Shown piece by piece: positions 5,663 to 64,000 of a DNA stretch of 64,000 nt. The position numbers and the translations under genes were made by a program. This DNA is from Streptosporangium saharense (lineage in GTDB: Bacteria > Actinomycetota > Actinomycetes > Streptosporangiales > Streptosporangiaceae), in assembly GCF_014203715.1 (NCBI RefSeq), contig NZ_JACHJP010000004.1, positions 558,001 to 622,000 on the forward strand, in the 5' to 3' direction. Under the pieces are notes generated by a model. That model ran no database searches, was not told where the DNA came from, and saw only the letters and a list, made by a program, of their open reading frames with translations. Position 1 is the stretch's first letter, and every line of letters begins with the position of its first letter.

Positions 5663-7926
5663 TACCGACCGCCCAGGGCTGCGAAGAAGTCACCCAGGTC
5701 GGGGACGGCATCCTCCGGTCGCGTCATATCACGCACGGTGTACGCCTCCACTACTTCGGCTAGCTCGAGGTCGCCCCGGGATCGCAACGTTGTGACTAGC
5801 GCCTGCCACGAGGTCTCTTCAGGGAGCATGAGTGCGCTGGCAACGGCCATGCGAAGGCCCTCTCCGGTCAAGCCGCGGGGGACACCGGTGCAGATGGCGA
5901 TTTCGTCATCCTCGCCCTTATTCCATCCCCGGACCAACCGGGTTCGGACGGCGCCCTGCTCTGTCGGCGCTAGCCAGAGAACGTCACCTTCTTTCGCGTC
6001 GAGCCGTACGGCGAGCGGACGGAGGCTGCCAAGTTGTGGCTGCGCCGCTGTCCAGGAGACTCGGATGTCCTGACCGAGAGCAGGAAAGATGCGTTCTGTT
6101 CCCTCGTCGACTTGGAAGAGGAGCATGGCACCCACAGGCGCGGTTAGTCCCGACCCGCGAAGCAGCTCTCTTCCCACGTCGACACGGAACCACCACTGCG
6201 CCTTGTGGAAGAAGCAGCGTCGGGTCTGCGCGGGTGTTGCCATCACACGCCGCGCACGCTCAGATCCTGCACTTCCCTGTCCCGCAAGGCTGATCCATCC
6301 GTCCCTGCGGGTGAACTCCTTCTGGGTCGCGTAGGCTCGGACGCTAAGTGGTGAGACCCCGAATTGCTCCACGAGTTCGTCCACGACGGCGGAAAGCAGG
6401 GCGCGCCCGCCGCCCCGCTCGATCCGCTGCACGATCTCCTCGCGGATGCCCTCATAAGTTTCGAGCTGCCATTCTGGTAGGCCGAAGGAGTTCGGCCCCA
6501 CCCGGACAATCCTCTCGTCGTCTAAGAGCCGATTCCGGAGCGAGCGGATGGCGTCGAGCCCGAGAAGCGCAGCGATCTCTTCCGTTTGCAGTGGATGCCC
6601 TGCTTGACGTAGAACCGCTATGGCCAGTTCTGGTTGGGAGGCCGTCTTTCGTGCAACCAGCCCTCCGATCCTGCGCAGGCCGCAGGACTCCAACCACTGG
6701 GCCCACTGCTGATCGTCCAGCAAGGCTTGATTCCGGAAGGCGTCGAGACCGGACCCTGCAGCAGCGCGAACTGTCTCGTCCCGCAGATCCGGCAGCGGTC
6801 GTGTTGCCAGCCACTCTTTCTCCACGTAAAGCTTGGGAAGCAGCACTCCGAGAAGGTTGCCGAGACTCGTCCCCAAGGAATGAATCTCCTCTACGAGCTG
6901 TGGGACTCTTTGCATCAGAGTGGCCAAGTTGATCAATGTGGGGACGGTGGACTTCACCTCTGCCTCGAGTGTCTCCAGGCGCCATCGCACTGCCGTGCCC
7001 TGCCGCCAGGTTTCGAAGTCCTCGACGAGCCTCTTCTCGACCTGCCGGATCCGCTCCCGGCTAACCCCGAACTCTTTCCCTAGGTCGTCAAGAGTTTGGT
7101 CACGGCAGATCACCCGATGCATCAGCGTCGCCTGCTGACGCTCGTCGAGCTGTGAGACCCATAGCTCAAGCAGATCCGTGAGCGTCATATCGGGGTCGAC
7201 TCCAGCTTTGTCGAGGACGTCGCCATCTGTGGCGCCGTCGTCGTCTAAGGCTGTGAAAATGAGGGCTTGCAAGATGTCTTCGACCACGTCTCCGCCGCTT
7301 CCCTGCAGATCCCAAAGATCCTGCACAGACAGCGACGCAAGATGAGAGGCAGTAGCAAGACCGCTCCCGCTCAGCACACCTACGGAGCGAATCAACCGGC
7401 ATCGTGGCCGAATGTCACGACGATCCGGACCCTCTACACCTAGGAGACGGCCCAGAGATGCCAGGCTCTCGCTTGTCGCGAGTTGTTTCGCCCCCCGGTT
7501 TACTAAAAGGTGCCGGTCCTCGGGAGTCGGCGACTCGCTAAGTTCCATGATTAACGCAGCGTGGAGGGGATCCGCGTACTTCAAATCCCGCAGACTCGCG
7601 TCGGCTGCGGTCAGAAGAAGAGCAGTGAGGATGTCTGTGACGCTCCGCGGACCGCAGTTCCTAAGCTCCCGGAGCTCTGGCACGGAGACCTTCAGCACCG
7701 ATGAGAGCTTGGAGAAGCCAGCGACCCGCAAGATGTTACGCGCTCGGACTGTGGCGCACCGACGGCTGACGTCGAGAGATGGAAGAAGATCTACTTCCAA
7801 GAGGACGCCGATTGGGTCGCCGGTCGCCACCTGGCCCAGACGCAGAGCCCAGGTAGCAGCTCGTGCAGCGCGCGCGTCCCGGTCGGAGGTTGCCCGGAGC
7901 TCCTCCAAGACACCACCGAAGACCAC
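5662..7926 (-). CDS. Sigma region 4-like / alpha-CTD-like DNA-binding protein
   Basis: A 754-residue protein, first gene of the minus-strand operon. It starts at GTG 7926 with AGGAGGAGG about seven bases upstream. Residues about 45-105 resemble the helix-hairpin-helix fold of the RNA polymerase alpha C-terminal domain (VPELRELRNCGPRSVTDIL), and a second similar block lies near 200-245 (SLSVQDLWDLQGSGGDVVED). Residues about 265-320 hold a sigma-70 region 4-type helix-turn-helix with LDDLGKEFGVSRERIRQVEK. A winged-helix-like stretch (PLQTEEIAALLGLDA) and an uncharacterised C-terminus follow. Region 2, needed to melt promoters, is absent, so it is not a classical sigma factor. A DNA-targeting or regulatory subunit of the operon is likely; the function is unknown. 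Confidence 0.65.
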   Translation of the reverse strand: MVFGGVLEELRATSDRDARAARAATWALRLGQVATGDPIGVLLEVDLLPSLDVSRRCATVRARNILRVAGFSKLSSVLKVSVPELRELRNCGPRSVTDILTALLLTAADASLRDLKYADPLHAALIMELSESPTPEDRHLLVNRGAKQLATSESLASLGRLLGVEGPDRRDIRPRCRLIRSVGVLSGSGLATASHLASLSVQDLWDLQGSGGDVVEDILQALIFTALDDDGATDGDVLDKAGVDPDMTLTDLLELWVSQLDERQQATLMHRVICRDQTLDDLGKEFGVSRERIRQVEKRLVEDFETWRQGTAVRWRLETLEAEVKSTVPTLINLATLMQRVPQLVEEIHSLGTSLGNLLGVLLPKLYVEKEWLATRPLPDLRDETVRAAAGSGLDAFRNQALLDDQQWAQWLESCGLRRIGGLVARKTASQPELAIAVLRQAGHPLQTEEIAALLGLDAIRSLRNRLLDDERIVRVGPNSFGLPEWQLETYEGIREEIVQRIERGGGRALLSAVVDELVEQFGVSPLSVRAYATQKEFTRRDGWISLAGQGSAGSERARRVMATPAQTRRCFFHKAQWWFRVDVGRELLRGSGLTAPVGAMLLFQVDEGTERIFPALGQDIRVSWTAAQPQLGSLRPLAVRLDAKEGDVLWLAPTEQGAVRTRLVRGWNKGEDDEIAICTGVPRGLTGEGLRMAVASALMLPEETSWQALVTTLRSRGDLELAEVVEAYTVRDMTRPEDAVPDLGDFFAALGGR

Positions 7927-55549: not shown

Positions 55550-55902
55550 CGGGCTCCTTCTCGCGTCACAGGGGCGTCGCCCTCGGGGCTCTGCTGCTGA
55601 GCTGCCTCCTGCTGCCGCTGGACGCGCGGCAGGCCCACGCCTGCGACATCGGCTACAGCTACCGGCCCTCCCTCACCTTCGACCTGTCCGCTCCCGGCCT
55701 GGGGCGGACGGAGTGCTCGAACGCGACCTCGCTGACCGGGGTCGCCGTCGTCGCCGCGCTGGCGGTGACGGCCCTGCTCGTCGCCGGTGCCCGCGCCTTC
55801 CGGCGGGGCGAGCGGGCCGCCGGGTCACTCGCGGGCCAGGCGACCGTGGCGCTGTCCGGCTATCTGGACGAGGCGGGCGTGACCCGCTCCTCCGGTGGGT
55901 GA
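55546..55902 (+). CDS. Small membrane protein with signal peptide
   Basis: A 118-residue protein: signal peptide (GVALGALLLSCLLLPLDA), a short exoplasmic segment with two cysteines (HACDIGYSYRP and GRTECSNA), one transmembrane helix (VAVVAALAVTALLVAGA) and a cytosolic tail. No family recognised. It overlaps both neighbours by 4 and 8 bases. Confidence 0.65.
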   Translation: MTGSFSRHRGVALGALLLSCLLLPLDARQAHACDIGYSYRPSLTFDLSAPGLGRTECSNATSLTGVAVVAALAVTALLVAGARAFRRGERAAGSLAGQATVALSGYLDEAGVTRSSGG

Positions 55903-58162
55903 TCGCATGCCTCAGGTACGGCGACGCCTGGCGGCCCTGGCCACCCTGCTGGGCGTCGCGCTGTCACTCCTGGTCCCCGGGGCGTCGGCGGCCCCGAAGC
56001 CGTCCCCCTCGCCGCCGGGCCACTACCGCCTGCTGCGGCCACCGGGGACCACGGCGGAGGACGCGGAGGTCGACGCGGCGATCCGTGAGGGAATGCCTGG
56101 GGAGCCGATGGTGCGCGAACTCACCGAGGCCGCCGTGCGAATCGGCGGGAAGAACTCCGTCATCAGCCAGGACGGAAACATCTCCGTCCAGTGGTTCGAC
56201 CTGAAATCCCTGGCGAACGCCGAAGACCTCCCCGAATGGGTTCGGAAGAAGGTCCCCGAGATCCATGATCTGCTGCTGGACGCCGGAGCCGAGTCGGCCC
56301 GCTCCGGGGCGGCGGAACGCATGATCATAGAGGGCGTCGAGTACGGCGAGGCGAACAAGGAGGTTTACCGGGCGATCGGGGCCACGCCGGACAGCAGACT
56401 GGTGAAGATCACGTCGGGCAGCACGTCCAGGAAGACCAACCCCGACGGGGAGCACTCCGAGCTGCGAGCCATCCAGTGGCTTGAGAAGTATCTCCCGAAC
56501 GTCCTGATGGAGGTGTCCAGGAGCAGGACGGACGGGGACCCCATCCGGGGCAGCAAGGCGAGAATTCTCGCGCGAAGAATAATGGACAGGACGGGCCTGT
56601 ACTTCGCCAGTCCGAGAGGCCCGTGCCTCGACAAGTGCGACAGAGCAACCCGGATCTTCGCCGGAGGCTTCGCGCTCGTCCACTACGGCAGGATGGGAAG
56701 CCGCGAATCCAAGGCTGCCGGAGCCTTCGTCAGCCTCTTCATGCCGAAAGCGCGCATCGCACTGGGGCTGTGGAAGAGAAATCCCAGCCGGGACGCCTTC
56801 GTGAAGGCGTGGGACGAGAAGGCCACCGCGATGTCGCGACAGAAGAACGCGCGGCAGGAGGAGGCGCGCCGGGACAACCTCGGGCTCGGCGCCTGCCCTC
56901 CCACGGGCGCGTCCGGGTACGGCGGCGCCGGTGAAAGGCGGGTCCTGGCGATGGCGGCACGTCCCCTGGCCGCGTCCTGCGCGGAGAGCGGGTCGAGTGC
57001 CCTGGCCGAGGGCGACTACGGCGGGGTCGACCTGTCGACCCTGGAGCTGCGCTACCTCTCCGACCGCCCCGACGCCGGTGACGTGCGCTACGCCTTCTCC
57101 GCGCGTGCCGCCTCCCCGGGGGGAACCTCCGGCGACGGTCCCCAGGCGGCGGCAGCGGCGACAGCGGCCACCGCGGACCTGCGGACCTGGCTGGTGCTGA
57201 GCCCGCAGACGTTCTGGGTCAACCTCAACCCGACCGAGCCTGACCGGGTCATCGATCCCGCTCTCGGCCAGACGGGCGCGGGCCGGGCGATGCTGGAGGC
57301 CGACCTGCGGATGAAGCGCACCCAGGGGAAGCTCCTCGACCCGGACACGGCCTTCGGCGCGCGCTACTGGAAGGCCATGGCCAGGAGCGAGGGAAAGCTG
57401 TGCTTCTCCTCCCGGATGTGGATCGTCCCCGGCGACGTGCGGGTGTACGAGGACGACGACTCGCTCTACGTCCTGCAGGCGCCGCTGACGGTGAAGATGA
57501 AGGCCGAGGACATCGGCGGCTCCTACTCGTGCGGGTCAACCGATCCGGCGGCCAGCGCGCGCAACGAGGAGCTCGAACGGTCGACGGTGCTGCCCGAGAT
57601 CGTCAAGGCGGTCAACACCGCCCCCGAGTACGCGCCGCTGCGCCGGGCCTTCACGGCCCGCGTGGTGGCCGAATGGATCCGCAGACGGCACGAGGCCGGC
57701 CACAGGACGTCGTTCGACGACCTCATCGACTCGGGAGATCTCGGCGGAGCCAGGCGCGACGACGGCTGGCGGCCCCGGCAGGTGTTCGACGACTACGTCC
57801 GCTCGATCCGCGACCGTGAGTTCACGTTCAGACAGACCGTCCGCCGGGGCCGGACGACCCTCGTCCGTACGCTGACGTTCGGCGGCGTCGACTTCGGCAG
57901 CGTCCCGACCACCACCGTCGACGCCGCCGAGATGAACCGGCTCCACCCGGACCTGCCGCGGGTCGTACGGGCGTCGGCGAGTCACCCGGAGAAGGGCAGG
58001 GACGGCGTGATCTGGCTGGGGGAGAGGCAGACGTTCCCCGAACCCTCTCTCTGGACCAGGGCGGGCGACTTCCTGAGCGGGCGCACCGGCGTCCTGGTCC
58101 TGGTCGTGGCCGGACTGGGCGTGGTCCTGTTCGGCTTCCGTGGGCGGCGCCCGAAGCGGTGA
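55895..58162 (+). CDS. Secreted, membrane-tethered deaminase-fold protein
   Basis: A 755-residue protein. Signal peptide at 8-32 (ALATLLGVALSLLVPGASA). A cytidine-deaminase-like zinc site is formed by DGEHSELRAIQW (HSE near 187-189) and SPRGPCLDKCDR (PCxxC near 243-248), the H-x-E...PCxxC pattern of the deaminase superfamily, including polymorphic-toxin deaminases. The long central part (300-720) has no recognised domain. A C-terminal helix (TGVLVLVVAGLGVVLFGF, near 735) and RRPKR anchor it in the membrane with the deaminase outside. GTG 55895 or ATG 55907 are possible starts. Confidence 0.7.
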   Translation: MGDRMPQVRRRLAALATLLGVALSLLVPGASAAPKPSPSPPGHYRLLRPPGTTAEDAEVDAAIREGMPGEPMVRELTEAAVRIGGKNSVISQDGNISVQWFDLKSLANAEDLPEWVRKKVPEIHDLLLDAGAESARSGAAERMIIEGVEYGEANKEVYRAIGATPDSRLVKITSGSTSRKTNPDGEHSELRAIQWLEKYLPNVLMEVSRSRTDGDPIRGSKARILARRIMDRTGLYFASPRGPCLDKCDRATRIFAGGFALVHYGRMGSRESKAAGAFVSLFMPKARIALGLWKRNPSRDAFVKAWDEKATAMSRQKNARQEEARRDNLGLGACPPTGASGYGGAGERRVLAMAARPLAASCAESGSSALAEGDYGGVDLSTLELRYLSDRPDAGDVRYAFSARAASPGGTSGDGPQAAAAATAATADLRTWLVLSPQTFWVNLNPTEPDRVIDPALGQTGAGRAMLEADLRMKRTQGKLLDPDTAFGARYWKAMARSEGKLCFSSRMWIVPGDVRVYEDDDSLYVLQAPLTVKMKAEDIGGSYSCGSTDPAASARNEELERSTVLPEIVKAVNTAPEYAPLRRAFTARVVAEWIRRRHEAGHRTSFDDLIDSGDLGGARRDDGWRPRQVFDDYVRSIRDREFTFRQTVRRGRTTLVRTLTFGGVDFGSVPTTTVDAAEMNRLHPDLPRVVRASASHPEKGRDGVIWLGERQTFPEPSLWTRAGDFLSGRTGVLVLVVAGLGVVLFGFRGRRPKR

Positions 58163-60033: not shown

Positions 60034-60867
60034 TCACCTGCCGATCCGCTGATGCTGGCGGGTCGCCAGGGGGACGAAGACGGCGAGGATCGCGACCGAC
60101 CACAGCAGGACGGCCGCGATCGGATGCTGGAGTGGCCAGGCATCCTGGGGTACGGAGGCTCCCGGGTTGCCGAACAGGTCGCGGCAGGCGGCGACGAGCG
60201 CGCTGGCCGGGTTCCAGTCCGCGACGAGCCGCAGCCACGCGGGCATGCCGTCGGTGGGCACGAAGCTGTTGGATAGCGCCGAGACCGGAAAGATCAGCGG
60301 AATGAACGCGTCCGCGGTCTCGGGGCTGATCGACAGACCGACGGTCACCCCGATCCAGCTCACCGCGAAGCGGACCAGGAGGATCAGGCCGAAGGCGGCA
60401 AGCGTGGCGGCCAGGCCGTGGTGCGCCCGCCAGCCGACGAGCAGCCCCATCCCGGCCATCATCGCGGTGGTGACGGCGCCGACGACCAGGTCCGCGACCG
60501 TACGGCCCGACGGGATCGCCGAGCGTGCCATCGGCAGGGAACGGAACCGGTCCATGACCCCCTCGGCGACGTCCTTGGAGATCATCAGGGCGCTGGCTAT
60601 CACCCCGGTGACGGCGTTCATGGCGAACAGGCCGGGGATTAGATACTCGCGGTAGTCCCCGCCCTCGGGCACCGCGATCGCGCTGCCGAAGTCGTAGCCG
60701 AACAGCACGACCATGACGGCCGGGACAACCAGCGCGCCGACCAGTTCGCCCGGATGATGGCGGATCTGGCTGAACTCCCTGCCCGCGACCGACCACGCGT
60801 CGCGCGCCCCCCAGCCAGCCTGGAAATGGTGCTGGACGGCCTCGCCCTCGGCCTGAGGTAGCGCCAA
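60034..60867 (-). CDS. ABC-2 type permease, no adjacent ATPase
   Basis: A 277-residue permease of the DrrB/ABC-2 class with six helices. Typical are YLIPGLFAMNAVTGVIASAL, MDRFRSLPMARSAIPSGRTV and a C-terminal SNSFVPTDGMPAWLRLVADW. These normally pair with an ATPase encoded just upstream; none is present in the 114-base gap or nearby. The start is a TTG at 60867 with no clear ribosome-binding site, so the gene may be a 5'-truncated remnant of a two-gene exporter. It converges with the MFS gene, 6 bases apart. Confidence 0.75.
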   Translation of the reverse strand: MALPQAEGEAVQHHFQAGWGARDAWSVAGREFSQIRHHPGELVGALVVPAVMVVLFGYDFGSAIAVPEGGDYREYLIPGLFAMNAVTGVIASALMISKDVAEGVMDRFRSLPMARSAIPSGRTVADLVVGAVTTAMMAGMGLLVGWRAHHGLAATLAAFGLILLVRFAVSWIGVTVGLSISPETADAFIPLIFPVSALSNSFVPTDGMPAWLRLVADWNPASALVAACRDLFGNPGASVPQDAWPLQHPIAAVLLWSVAILAVFVPLATRQHQRIGR

Positions 60868-60981
60868 TTGTCATATAACGCCCGAACCAAGCGATAAGTG
60901 ACCAATCATGAGGGGTCCACATATTTCGGTCGAGCCGGATTATGCTCTGGGCAGTTCTGAAGTGGATCAACGGAGGTGTCC

Positions 60982-61065
60982 ATGAGGAAGATGACCGTCC
61001 GTCGCAAGGGCGCACTGCGCCTGCTGTCCGGCGCCCGCCGTCTCTGGATCGAGTGGTGCTGGTAG
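60982..61065 (+). CDS. 27-residue Trp-rich micro-ORF (peptide precursor or leader peptide)
   Basis: An ATG-started 27-codon frame with a strong ACGGAGG (60970-60976) five bases upstream. The N-terminal part is basic (MRKMTVRRKG), the middle ALRLLSGARR, and the C-terminal six residues are WIEWCW, ending in TAG. A short basic leader followed by an aromatic/Cys core is the form of a ribosomally made peptide precursor; the Trp codons before a hairpin could instead act in attenuation. It lies 56 bases before the TPR gene with a perfect palindrome between. No tailoring enzyme is adjacent. Confidence 0.6.
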   Translation: MRKMTVRRKGALRLLSGARRLWIEWCW

Positions 61066-61075
61066 TTGCCGGTAC

Positions 61076-61099
61076 GGCGGGCACCCCGGGGTGCCCGCC
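61076..61099 (+). terminator. Perfect 24-base palindrome between micro-ORF and TPR gene
   Basis: GGCGGGCACCCC (61076-61087) is followed directly by its complement GGGGTGCCCGCC (61088-61099), a very stable stem (loop formed from the inner bases). It begins 11 bases after the micro-ORF stop and ends about 20 bases before the TPR start codon. It could be a leaky terminator or attenuator, or a translational block. Confidence 0.6.
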
Positions 61100-61120
61100 C
61101 TCACGGGAACCGGACGGGCT

Positions 61121-62809
61121 ATGACGCGGGAACCGGACAGGCCGGAAGGCTACGACTGCCACCGGGACGGCGGGCCGTACGCCGGGATCGCCTCCTTCCT
61201 CGCCAGGATCGCCGAGGAACGGCCTCGCCTGGCGGCCCACCACCGGGTCGAGCTGCACGCGATCGCCCCCTGGCTCGACCGTACGGCGCGCCCCGCCGCC
61301 GAGGAGGAGCCGATCCGCTTCCACCCCGCCCGGCGCACCGCCTGCCTGGCCTACGGCGCCGTGGAGTTCGTCACGGCCTGGGCCGACACGCTCAGGCGCC
61401 CGGTCACCGTACGGCTCGACCACGTCGGCGACGCCGACGAGACCACCCGCGAGCTGCTGGACGCGCTGGCCAGGAGGAAGCCGTCCCTGCTGCGCCTGGA
61501 GTCGCGCGACGGCGGCGCTCCCCGGCGGGCGGCGGCCGAGCCGACGCGTACGGCCCTGGGCGAGAGTCTGGCTCGCGGTTTCTACCACCACGCGGAGCGG
61601 ATCGCCCGGCGCGGGCGCGCCACGGTGACCCCGGACGGCGACCTGCGGCTCTGGTGGGCGTTCACCACCGGCCTGGCCACCGCCCTGGCGGCACTGGACC
61701 GCGCGGCCGAGGCGCTCGACCTCTACCACGAGGCGCGCGCCGCCACCGACGACCCGAAGATCACCATGTCGGCCGCCTACGCCACGGCCATGCTGTACGC
61801 CAGGCACCTGCCCGCCTCCGACCAGGACCCCGAGCAGGCACGGCGCTGGCTGGAACGGGCGATCGACCTCGCGGCCGGGCTGGACGACCCACGGCGGCGG
61901 ACGCTGTCCACGGTCTTCTACGAGCAGGGGCTCGCCCTGCTGGACGCCAGGGCCGGGGAGCACGCCTACGCGCTGCGGCTGGTCAACGACGGGCTGGCCC
62001 GGCTGACGGCGATGCTCGGTTCCGGGGAGCGGTCGCAGGACGTGGCCCGGCTGCGCCACAACCGGGCGCAGGTGTACCTGGCCATGGGGGAGCGGGACCT
62101 GGCCCTGGCCGACCTCGACACCGTGATCGAACACGACCCCGACAACTGCGAGTACTACGTGGACCGGGCCGCCCTGTACCGTGCGGCGGGACGGGCGAAG
62201 GCCGCGATCGGGGACTACGGCACCGCGATCCGGCTGGGGCCGCACCTGCCGGAGGCGTACTACAACCGGGCCGTGCTCCAGCAGGAGCGGGGCCGTACGG
62301 CACGGGCGTGTGAGGACCTGGAACGCGCGCTCGCCGTCGACCCCGGGCACCTCGACGCCAGGATCACCCTGGTCAACCTGCGGGTCGAAAGCGGCGCGCT
62401 CGACGAGGCCGAGACCGAGGCGCGGGCCGGACTCGAACTGGCGCCGAGGGATCCCGCGCTGCTGTGCACGCTCGGGCTGGTCCGCTCCGAACGCGGCGGC
62501 CTCGCCGAGGCGGACGAACTGCTCACCCGGGCCCTGGCCGGGGACCCCAAGCTTGTCGAGGCCTGGACGAACCGGGCAGCCGTACGGTTCGACCGCGGTG
62601 AGGTGGCCGCCGCGGTCGCCGACCTGGACCGGGCGGTCGCGCTGTCGGAGGCGCCGGTGCCCCGCTACAACCGGGGGAAGGCGCTGGTACGGCTCGGCCG
62701 GACCGAGGAGGCCGCCCGCGACTTCGCCTATGCCCTCACCCAGCCCGGCCTGGACCGGGCGCTGCGCCGCGACCTCCGCGCCGAACTGGCCCGCTGCCGC
62801 CGCCCCTGA
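61121..62809 (+). CDS. Tetratricopeptide repeat protein
   Basis: A 562-residue soluble protein. The N-terminal ~190 residues are unassigned (RVELHAIAPWLDRTARPAAE, then TACLAYGAVEFVTAWADTLR). From about residue 195 helical repeats begin, and clear TPR units follow: AQVYLAMGERDLALADLDTV, AALYRAAGRAKAAIGDYGTA, AVLQQERGRTARACEDLERA and later copies, about nine in all. ATG 61121 is preferred; an in-frame GTG at 61091 falls inside the hairpin. Its place after the peptide micro-ORF suggests a peptide-related or regulatory role, by inference. Confidence 0.8.
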   Translation: MTREPDRPEGYDCHRDGGPYAGIASFLARIAEERPRLAAHHRVELHAIAPWLDRTARPAAEEEPIRFHPARRTACLAYGAVEFVTAWADTLRRPVTVRLDHVGDADETTRELLDALARRKPSLLRLESRDGGAPRRAAAEPTRTALGESLARGFYHHAERIARRGRATVTPDGDLRLWWAFTTGLATALAALDRAAEALDLYHEARAATDDPKITMSAAYATAMLYARHLPASDQDPEQARRWLERAIDLAAGLDDPRRRTLSTVFYEQGLALLDARAGEHAYALRLVNDGLARLTAMLGSGERSQDVARLRHNRAQVYLAMGERDLALADLDTVIEHDPDNCEYYVDRAALYRAAGRAKAAIGDYGTAIRLGPHLPEAYYNRAVLQQERGRTARACEDLERALAVDPGHLDARITLVNLRVESGALDEAETEARAGLELAPRDPALLCTLGLVRSERGGLAEADELLTRALAGDPKLVEAWTNRAAVRFDRGEVAAAVADLDRAVALSEAPVPRYNRGKALVRLGRTEEAARDFAYALTQPGLDRALRRDLRAELARCRRP

Positions 62810-62854: not shown

Positions 62855-64000
62855 TCAGCGGTAGTGCAGTGCCGGGAGGCACTCGGGGAAGGGGCGTCGC
62901 CAGCGGTGGCCGTCGGGGGGCACGTGGGCCTCAAGGTGTTCGCGCACCGGCGGCACCATGGCCTTGAAGAAGCGCCGTGGCGTGGCGCGCGGATTGGTCT
63001 CGGCGAGGTGGCGCAGGGCGTCCGCCCCGGTCAGCAGGGTGTAGCGGCCCTGGCCTCGGCCGTAGAAGACGTAGGTCGGAGTGCTCCACCGCCAGGCCGA
63101 CCTGCCGGTGTTGCGGTTGCGGACGGCGGTGGCGATCAGGCGGCCCCCGGTCCGCCAGGCGGGCAGCGACGGCCTGCCGGTCCGCTCGCCGATCGGCCAG
63201 GCGTCGAGCCACACGCGGTGTCCGTCGAAGATCCAGCGCACGTCCCAGCCGTGCTCACGCAGGACGTCGGCGTGGCCGTCGAACACGCTCGGGTGCGGAG
63301 GCCGGGGTGGGGGACGGTGGTTGCGCGGGTCCTGCCGGGCCTGCTCGACAAGCTCGGCGTACCGGACGGGATGGCGGTCGACGAGGTGCCGGTGGAGCGG
63401 CGCGTCGGCCCGGCGGCTCAGCCGGTCGTGCTCGACCAGCGCGGCCCGCACGTGGGTGAGGAAGGTGAGCTTGGAGGCCCACCGCTCGCGAGGGGTGTCG
63501 TGGCGCGCCTGGATGAGGTGCGGGTCGGGGACGGCGAAGAGGTTGCGCACGCGGGCGGGCGTCACCTCCAGGCCTATCTCGGTGAACGCCATCGTGCCGA
63601 TCGCCACCAGCGCCTCGTACCACCGGGACAGCAGCGCCGGGTGGCGCAGCGCGTGGCACACCCCGCTGTCCTTGATGTCGTTGCCGACCAGCTCGCGGAA
63701 GGCGACCGCGCCCATCGTCAGCAGTCTGGCGACGTCGTCGTTCCTCTTCGGGTGGAACAGCGGCTCGGCCTCCTCCCGGTGGTCCGCCATGAGAGTCGCG
63801 AGCGCCGAGGCCGTCGCCCGGTCGGCGGACAGCCCGGCGCGCGCCTCGACGATGAGCCGCGCCTCGACGCCGCGCTGGCGGATGCGGGCCAGGCGCCGTT
63901 CCGCGCGCCGCGTGGCCGGGTCGTCGAACCCTGAACCGAGCACGCTGTTCCACCACGAGAGCTGGTGGAGCCCCTCCTGTCGGGTGAGGACGTCCTCCCA
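62855..64000 (-). CDS. Hypothetical protein, 5' end beyond the window
   Basis: The frame stays open through the right edge: upstream of the internal GTG at 63943 it continues as DVLTRQEGLHQLSWWNSVLG, so the real start lies outside. At least 381 residues are visible. No family recognised. Notable features are an Arg/Ala-rich helical start (RRAERRLARIRQRG), a C-terminal half rich in Trp and His (HGWDVRWIFDGHRVWLDAWP) and an end of RWRRPFPECLPALHYR. No signal peptide or membrane segment is visible. Confidence 0.6.
   Translation of the reverse strand, partial: WEDVLTRQEGLHQLSWWNSVLGSGFDDPATRRAERRLARIRQRGVEARLIVEARAGLSADRATASALATLMADHREEAEPLFHPKRNDDVARLLTMGAVAFRELVGNDIKDSGVCHALRHPALLSRWYEALVAIGTMAFTEIGLEVTPARVRNLFAVPDPHLIQARHDTPRERWASKLTFLTHVRAALVEHDRLSRRADAPLHRHLVDRHPVRYAELVEQARQDPRNHRPPPRPPHPSVFDGHADVLREHGWDVRWIFDGHRVWLDAWPIGERTGRPSLPAWRTGGRLIATAVRNRNTGRSAWRWSTPTYVFYGRGQGRYTLLTGADALRHLAETNPRATPRRFFKAMVPPVREHLEAHVPPDGHRWRRPFPECLPALHYR

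Follow-up and report, generated by a model that had tools for sequence, protein, structure and literature searches.

A conserved micro-ORF ending in RRLWIEWCW and its TPR partner gene in Streptosporangium saharense look like a protease-less branch of a wider actinomycete precursor-peptide family

The 64,000-nucleotide stretch of the Streptosporangium saharense genome analyzed here (the window; contig NZ_JACHJP010000004.1, positions 558,001 to 622,000 of the forward strand) carries a micro-ORF of 27 codons followed by a palindrome and a TPR-repeat gene, and the question raised by this arrangement is whether the micro-ORF encodes a peptide with a role of its own, as a signal or a natural product, or a leader that regulates the gene behind it. 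The micro-ORF (60982..61065, + strand) reads MRKMTVRRKGALRLLSGARRLWIEWCW* and is preceded by the ribosome-binding site GGAGGTG (60972..60978, +), 3 nt ahead of the ATG. Its product comprises a leader-like N-terminal part (codons 1-18, 60982..61035, +), kin to the MKKIxVRKxGxVxL peptides found beside TPR paralogues, and the tail RRLWIEWCW (codons 19-27, 61036..61062, +), conserved in an alignment of 31 copies and proposed as the active part. A perfect 24-nt palindrome, GGCGGGCACCCCGGGGTGCCCGCC (61076..61099, +), would form a 10-bp stem with a CCGG loop as RNA and is proposed to be a partial terminator or an mRNA-stability element; the gene for the TPR protein, of 562 aa, lies at 61121..62809 (+). 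The initial annotation had described a 27-residue peptide ending in WIEWCW with a strong ribosome-binding site, then the palindrome and the TPR gene, and all of these were confirmed in the sequence, the peptide also recurring in relatives, with the single correction that the gap between micro-ORF stop and palindrome is 10 bases instead of 11. The first listed start of the TPR frame is GTG 61091, which falls within the palindrome, and ATG 61121 better matches the start positions in relatives, making the latter the most likely start. Upstream, a promoter-like block, CATATTTC-N12-TTATGCTC (60920..60947, +), was kept 5' of most micro-ORFs of this type in an alignment of 31 upstream regions, which also showed GGAGG kept 5' of the relatives' micro-ORFs; the block may act as a promoter, and no sigma-70 consensus promoter was identified in 60800-61300.

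The peptide was recovered from seven further Streptosporangium genomes (E 4e-10 to 4e-12), giving 8/16 genus genomes including the window's own, and the TPR protein was present at E 1e-285 or better in exactly those eight. Both the peptide and a close TPR orthologue were absent from the other eight, so that co-occurrence agreed in 16/16 genomes. At the family level, the peptide was identified in 14 of 250 genomes and was adjoined by the TPR gene in all 14. A scan from the TPR protein alone yielded 38 loci, nine distant ones of which (L119-L127, 23-34% identity) were left out of the counts; the 29 close orthologues (52-83% identity) occurred in named actinomycetes of the genera Streptosporangium, Microtetraspora, Micromonospora, Nonomuraea, Spongiactinospora, Catellatospora, and Hamadaea plus one Streptomyces and one Actinophytocola. 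The micro-ORF lay directly upstream in 29/29, complete in 28 and truncated in the other (L104), whose contig begins within it, and the conserved WxxWCW micro-ORF sought beside TPR homologues was therefore found. The motif was present in 42/43 loci examined, represented by 31 distinct copies. The DNA pattern TGGNTNGARTGGTGYTGGTRR occurred in 2/394 genomes of the class, both carrying the peptide-TPR system. Eleven weak peptide-only matches (E 0.07-0.86) were rejected as noise, none of the eight inspected ending in WxEWCW.

The coding nature of the micro-ORF was reflected in its substitution pattern. Across the 31 distinct copies, dN/dS (Nei-Gojobori, pooled over pairs) was 0.33 in frame vs. 0.97 and 3.6 in the other two frames, and by part it was 0.077 for codons 17-27 vs. 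0.57 for codons 2-16. The residues R19, R20, W22, E24, W25, C26, and W27 (RR..W.EWCW) were invariant, and eight of the nine tail positions varied in at most one copy, the remaining position being I, F, or M. The peptide itself is under selection, as the in-frame dN/dS is low and lowest in the tail.

Genomes with this unit, hereafter the WCW unit, also carried TPR paralogues (35-41% identity) that have the motif HRRLRGPYT in their N-terminal part, and three proteins of the paralogue family gave a weak AAA ATPase match below the model cut-off (E 7e-4 to 9e-3). Many of these paralogues were preceded by micro-ORFs such as MKRVIVHKPGTVTLSGAASPKHVG and MKKIIVRKPGTTKLSGASSVIHKG, whose products share the N-terminus MKKIxVRKxGxVxL with the WCW peptide, have other tails, and are often followed by a hairpin. 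A 23-row alignment displayed an N-terminal leader common to the relatives and a variable C-terminal part, some tails being rich in Cys, Tyr, or Trp. Leader-like peptides were found in 18/20 paralogue regions, with four in tandem at L166 and three at L177, and the pattern search recovered none in the other two (L176 and L178). The Streptomyces-group loci L166 (G506) and L177 (G454) both carry tandem precursors with one leader and differing tails ahead of a protease gene, and at L166 a 13-bp stem stands behind the last precursor copy only. In most of the Streptomyces TPR loci examined, a protease gene separates the micro-ORFs from the TPR gene, and an early view of the broad Streptomyces TPR family as free of micro-ORFs was rejected on finding peptides beyond the protease gene. 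All three kinds are present in the window genome, where the WCW unit is joined by a KHVG pair and by a full protease operon. The KHVG-type pair (L045, G000:C3:677292-679130) consists of MKRVIVHKPGMITLSGAASPKHVG, a hairpin, and a TPR gene, with no protease in the fetched flank. The operon (L180, G000:C1:526000-540000, peptide near 7775 on the minus strand) consists of the precursor MKKITVRRAGDVRLTSATCSCPYPQAN, a 12-bp stem, an RRE-like/HExxH protease gene, and a TPR gene.

The relation of the WCW peptide to these precursors was supported by a leader profile of 16 columns built from 18 non-WCW peptides, with which five tested WCW peptides (of the 31) scored 13.0-28.8 against a best background score of 10.3; none of the 14,578 background ORFs, from which 161 family-like ORFs had been removed beforehand by pattern, reached the scores of the WCW peptides, and the window peptide was the weakest of the five at 13.0. 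The divergent peptides L117 (MRKMTTRKSGTVALTGNS-RRLWFEWCW) and L118 (MKKVTAKKAGSTKLTAGS-RRLWIEWCW) bridge the WCW branch and the wider family. In a TPR tree of 85 rows, obtained by a quick method and carrying a long-branch warning that includes L118, the WCW partners (31 rows) and the KPGT partners (28 rows) were each set apart as one group by a branch with support 100, and between them lay the 26 rows of the protease type. By these comparisons, the window unit looks like the WCW branch, lacking a protease, of a wider family of precursor peptides paired with TPR proteins in actinomycetes, a family that is apparently large and unnamed.

The protease of the relatives, of about 400-450 aa, contains HExxH and 4-6 hydrophobic stretches and is encoded between the peptide and TPR genes; [YF]LRTD[LV]Y occurred some 94-100 residues past HExxH in 14/18 of the proteins. 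With three protease queries, an HExxH protein was found beside 29/58 paralogue loci, three repeat fetches included, vs. 0/43 WCW loci, the 29 negative paralogue loci all being KPGT-type, for which some 1.5 kb of flank was covered. A PqqD/RRE-like domain seems to make up the first 84 residues: when a profile of this region from 13 sequences was searched against the PDB, the top two of three matches were TbiB1 (E 0.13) and TfuB1 (E 0.31), both leader-binding proteins of lasso-peptide pathways. Pfam PqqD was not matched by the proteases scanned, Pfam M50 was reached at E 0.16 by one of six and by none of the others, and NCBIfam gave nothing for five, so the scores behind both the RRE and the protease assignment are weak. 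No modifying enzyme common to the protease-bearing relatives was found with a crude gene finder. A close protease homologue (at least 46% identity) was encoded elsewhere in 7/8 WCW genomes of the genus, G002 being the one without it, vs. 0/8 non-WCW genomes, a comparison uncorrected for kinship; two of the non-WCW genomes carry only homologues at 31-32%. The genus genomes also contain a second, distant HExxH set (L191-L198, 31-33% identity to the protease) with a similar N-terminal domain and the motifs HEGGH, HECGH, HELMH, or HEMMH, with no leader-like peptide alongside by pattern search. A protease (annotated as hypothetical protein) plus TPR operon was identified amid transposase genes on the linear plasmid NZ_CP109482.1 of Streptomyces sp. 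NBC_01450 (L200), where the pattern search found no leader-like peptide.

The TPR protein of the window consists of an N-terminal alpha/beta part (about residues 10-135) and a TPR superhelix, in an AlphaFold model of pLDDT 89. Foldseek matches of this model were TPR superhelices in general and thus gave no specific functional hint, and Pfam (E 1e-3 or better) returned generic TPR-type models and no HTH, DNA-binding, or RRNPP-specific domain. A tethered AlphaFold model of peptide and TPR protein showed no docking, with residues 1-55 at pLDDT below 50; as the peptide rows were unpaired and the tether is unnatural, this is at most a weak result against peptide-TPR binding.

The reading preferred here, with a probability of roughly 0.55, is that the locus is a two-gene cassette, with the TPR protein either acting on or sensing the short precursor peptide encoded beside it, as the WCW branch of the wider family. 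It draws on the homology of and selection on the peptide, its pairing with one TPR clade, the resemblance of its leader to those of the relatives, and the existence of relatives with a protease, and any binding, cleavage, or modification would proceed as follows. The strong ribosome-binding site would drive production of the precursor, and the hairpin would let more precursor than TPR message accumulate. The leader would then be cut off, perhaps by an RRE-protease acting in trans from another genomic locus, leaving the tail RRLWIEWCW, bare or modified, as the active product, for which the TPR protein may serve as a cytoplasmic receptor or carrier. A diffusible signal would be the most likely use of the product, with antibiotic action or regulation confined to the cell less likely. 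Against this reading stand the near-invariance of the tail, which most RiPP cores do not share, and the neighborhood of the WCW unit, where no processing or modifying gene is common to the loci and neither an exporter nor an importer is linked. A broader proposal is more tentative and possible rather than probable, namely that actinomycetes possess a widespread peptide-receptor system in which short precursors, alike in their leader and clade-specific in their tails, are cut by an intramembrane protease guided by its RRE and sensed by a dedicated degenerate-ATPase/TPR receptor; the WCW unit would be a minimal, horizontally moving form of this system and the almost fixed RRLW[IF]EWCW a cross-genus signal processed in trans.

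Ribosome-arrest and attenuation leaders such as TnaC and the trp leader also place a short ORF with Trp codons before a hairpin and a downstream gene, and a leader controlling read-through of the hairpin had been among the initial suggestions. Here, nascent RRLWIEWCW would stall the ribosome at the stop codon, or a shortage of Trp or Cys would do so, and the stalling would determine both what becomes of the hairpin and how strongly the TPR gene is expressed. The most conserved residues adjoin the stop codon, and a stem of at least eight pairs lies 3' of it in 30 of the 31 copies, exactly 10 nt away in 26, with 12 different stem pairs; when these GC-rich stretches were shuffled by mononucleotide, 20.6% of the shuffles also gave stems of this size. 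The stem is nevertheless absent in L118 and replaced by an unrelated 20-bp stem 19 nt past the stop in L117, these being the two most divergent members. In Hamadaea (L113 and L116), translation of the micro-ORF and the TPR gene may be coupled, since the sole TPR start codon that is suitable overlaps the 3' end of the micro-ORF; a stem would consequently fall inside the TPR coding region. Folded as RNA, the 159-nt leader was not unusual (z -0.88), its stability being no higher than that of shuffles; only the local stem stood out, no alternative fold was seen, and 60800-61300 contains no T-tract terminator. In contrast to TnaC and the trp leader, the family is also marked by conservation of the amino acids, tandem precursor genes, and differing tails, and the paralogous precursors have other, unrelated hairpins (20/29 and 14/23, as raw counts not adjusted for chance stems). 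A Trp attenuator or read-through leader is accordingly disfavored, and a cis-acting role of the micro-ORF in general appears quite unlikely.

Production of a modified natural product, in which the TPR protein would present the precursor and enzymes encoded elsewhere would cross-link or otherwise alter the tail, fits a tail rich in Trp and Cys, the precursor-like leader, and the Cys/Tyr/Trp-rich tails of some relatives. The protease-containing relatives, as described above, have no modifying enzyme in common. At 14 WCW loci with about 9-10 kb per side, the TPR gene was the sole neighbor common to more than four and no conserved enzyme neighbor was detected, both by a crude gene finder; four neighbors scanned in the window matched ABC-2 permease and MFS families or nothing. 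This alternative is considered unlikely. Two further ORFs of the window, of 755 aa (55895-58162, +) and 362 aa (62855-63943, -), had no match in Pfam (1e-3) or NCBIfam (0.1). The unshared flanks of the two-gene cassette would also suit a toxin-antitoxin or other self-interaction in which the TPR protein restrains a cationic, Trp-tailed peptide harmful to the cell, as would its mobility: the host distribution and the scattering of Micromonospora rows among Streptosporangiaceae rows in the TPR tree, at forks several of which are weak, suggest horizontal transfer of the unit. The TPR protein gave nothing notable against PADLOC and toxin families beyond one weak match of the TPR region to PrimPol, and processing better accounts for the leader's kinship to precursor peptides, which makes such a role very unlikely. 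No phage record matched at E 1e-20, and one plasmid record, a Nonomuraea gerenzanensis replicon of 11.85 Mb, carried a TPR gene at 36% identity.

The precursor-peptide cassette was compared with known peptide systems. The FxSxx-COOH system of NCBIfam also links short peptide genes of actinomycetes to a TPR protein; no such model was matched by the peptides or TPR proteins scanned, and the C-terminus differs. None of the peptides or proteases scanned reached Pfam or NCBIfam cut-offs, and no description of the peptide-TPR family was found in the open-access literature searched. The RRNPP systems share a small peptide gene adjoining a TPR protein gene and are described for Firmicutes, with a detector range of 250-500 aa (PMC10075063), compared with 562 aa here. 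In addition, the window protein has no HTH or RRNPP-specific Pfam domain, the peptide gene comes first, and no hydrophobic secretion signal is visible in the peptide, so the RRNPP comparison drawn initially stands as an analogy and not as membership. In daptide clusters, which each contain several short ORFs, the leader is removed by a site-2 protease with an RRE fused to its N-terminus (PMC10036551). The relatives are similar in having short ORFs that are alike at the N-terminus, in some cases more than one at a locus, and a membrane protease with an RRE-like N-terminus alongside. Daptides have the leader motif ELExMEAP and an invariant C-terminal Thr (PMC10036551), whereas the leader here is MKKIxVRKxGxVxLT/S and the tails lack an invariant final Thr. 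The conserved partner here is a TPR protein instead of a decarboxylase, an aminotransferase, and a methyltransferase, and no protease lies near the WCW unit of the window. Parts of the system resemble known ones, namely the RRE-guided site-2 proteases of RiPP clusters and the peptide-TPR pairs of Firmicutes, and the shared leader, variable tails, protease, and tandem copies correspond, by analogy with daptide clusters, to a RiPP-precursor architecture. Among the early suggestions, the RiPP unit gained the most, through the precursor-like N-terminus, variable tails, tandem copies, and the protease of the relatives, but no homologue of the RRE-like protease was found at the 43 WCW loci themselves.

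If the peptide is a product, it would represent a peptide class, unnamed by Pfam and NCBIfam, in the antibiotic-producing genera Streptosporangium, Micromonospora, Nonomuraea, and Streptomyces; if it is a signal, peptide-TPR pairs would extend beyond the Firmicutes. In either case, as the nonapeptide is near-fixed and has a single partner, one purified protein and a synthetic peptide would be enough to test the question directly.
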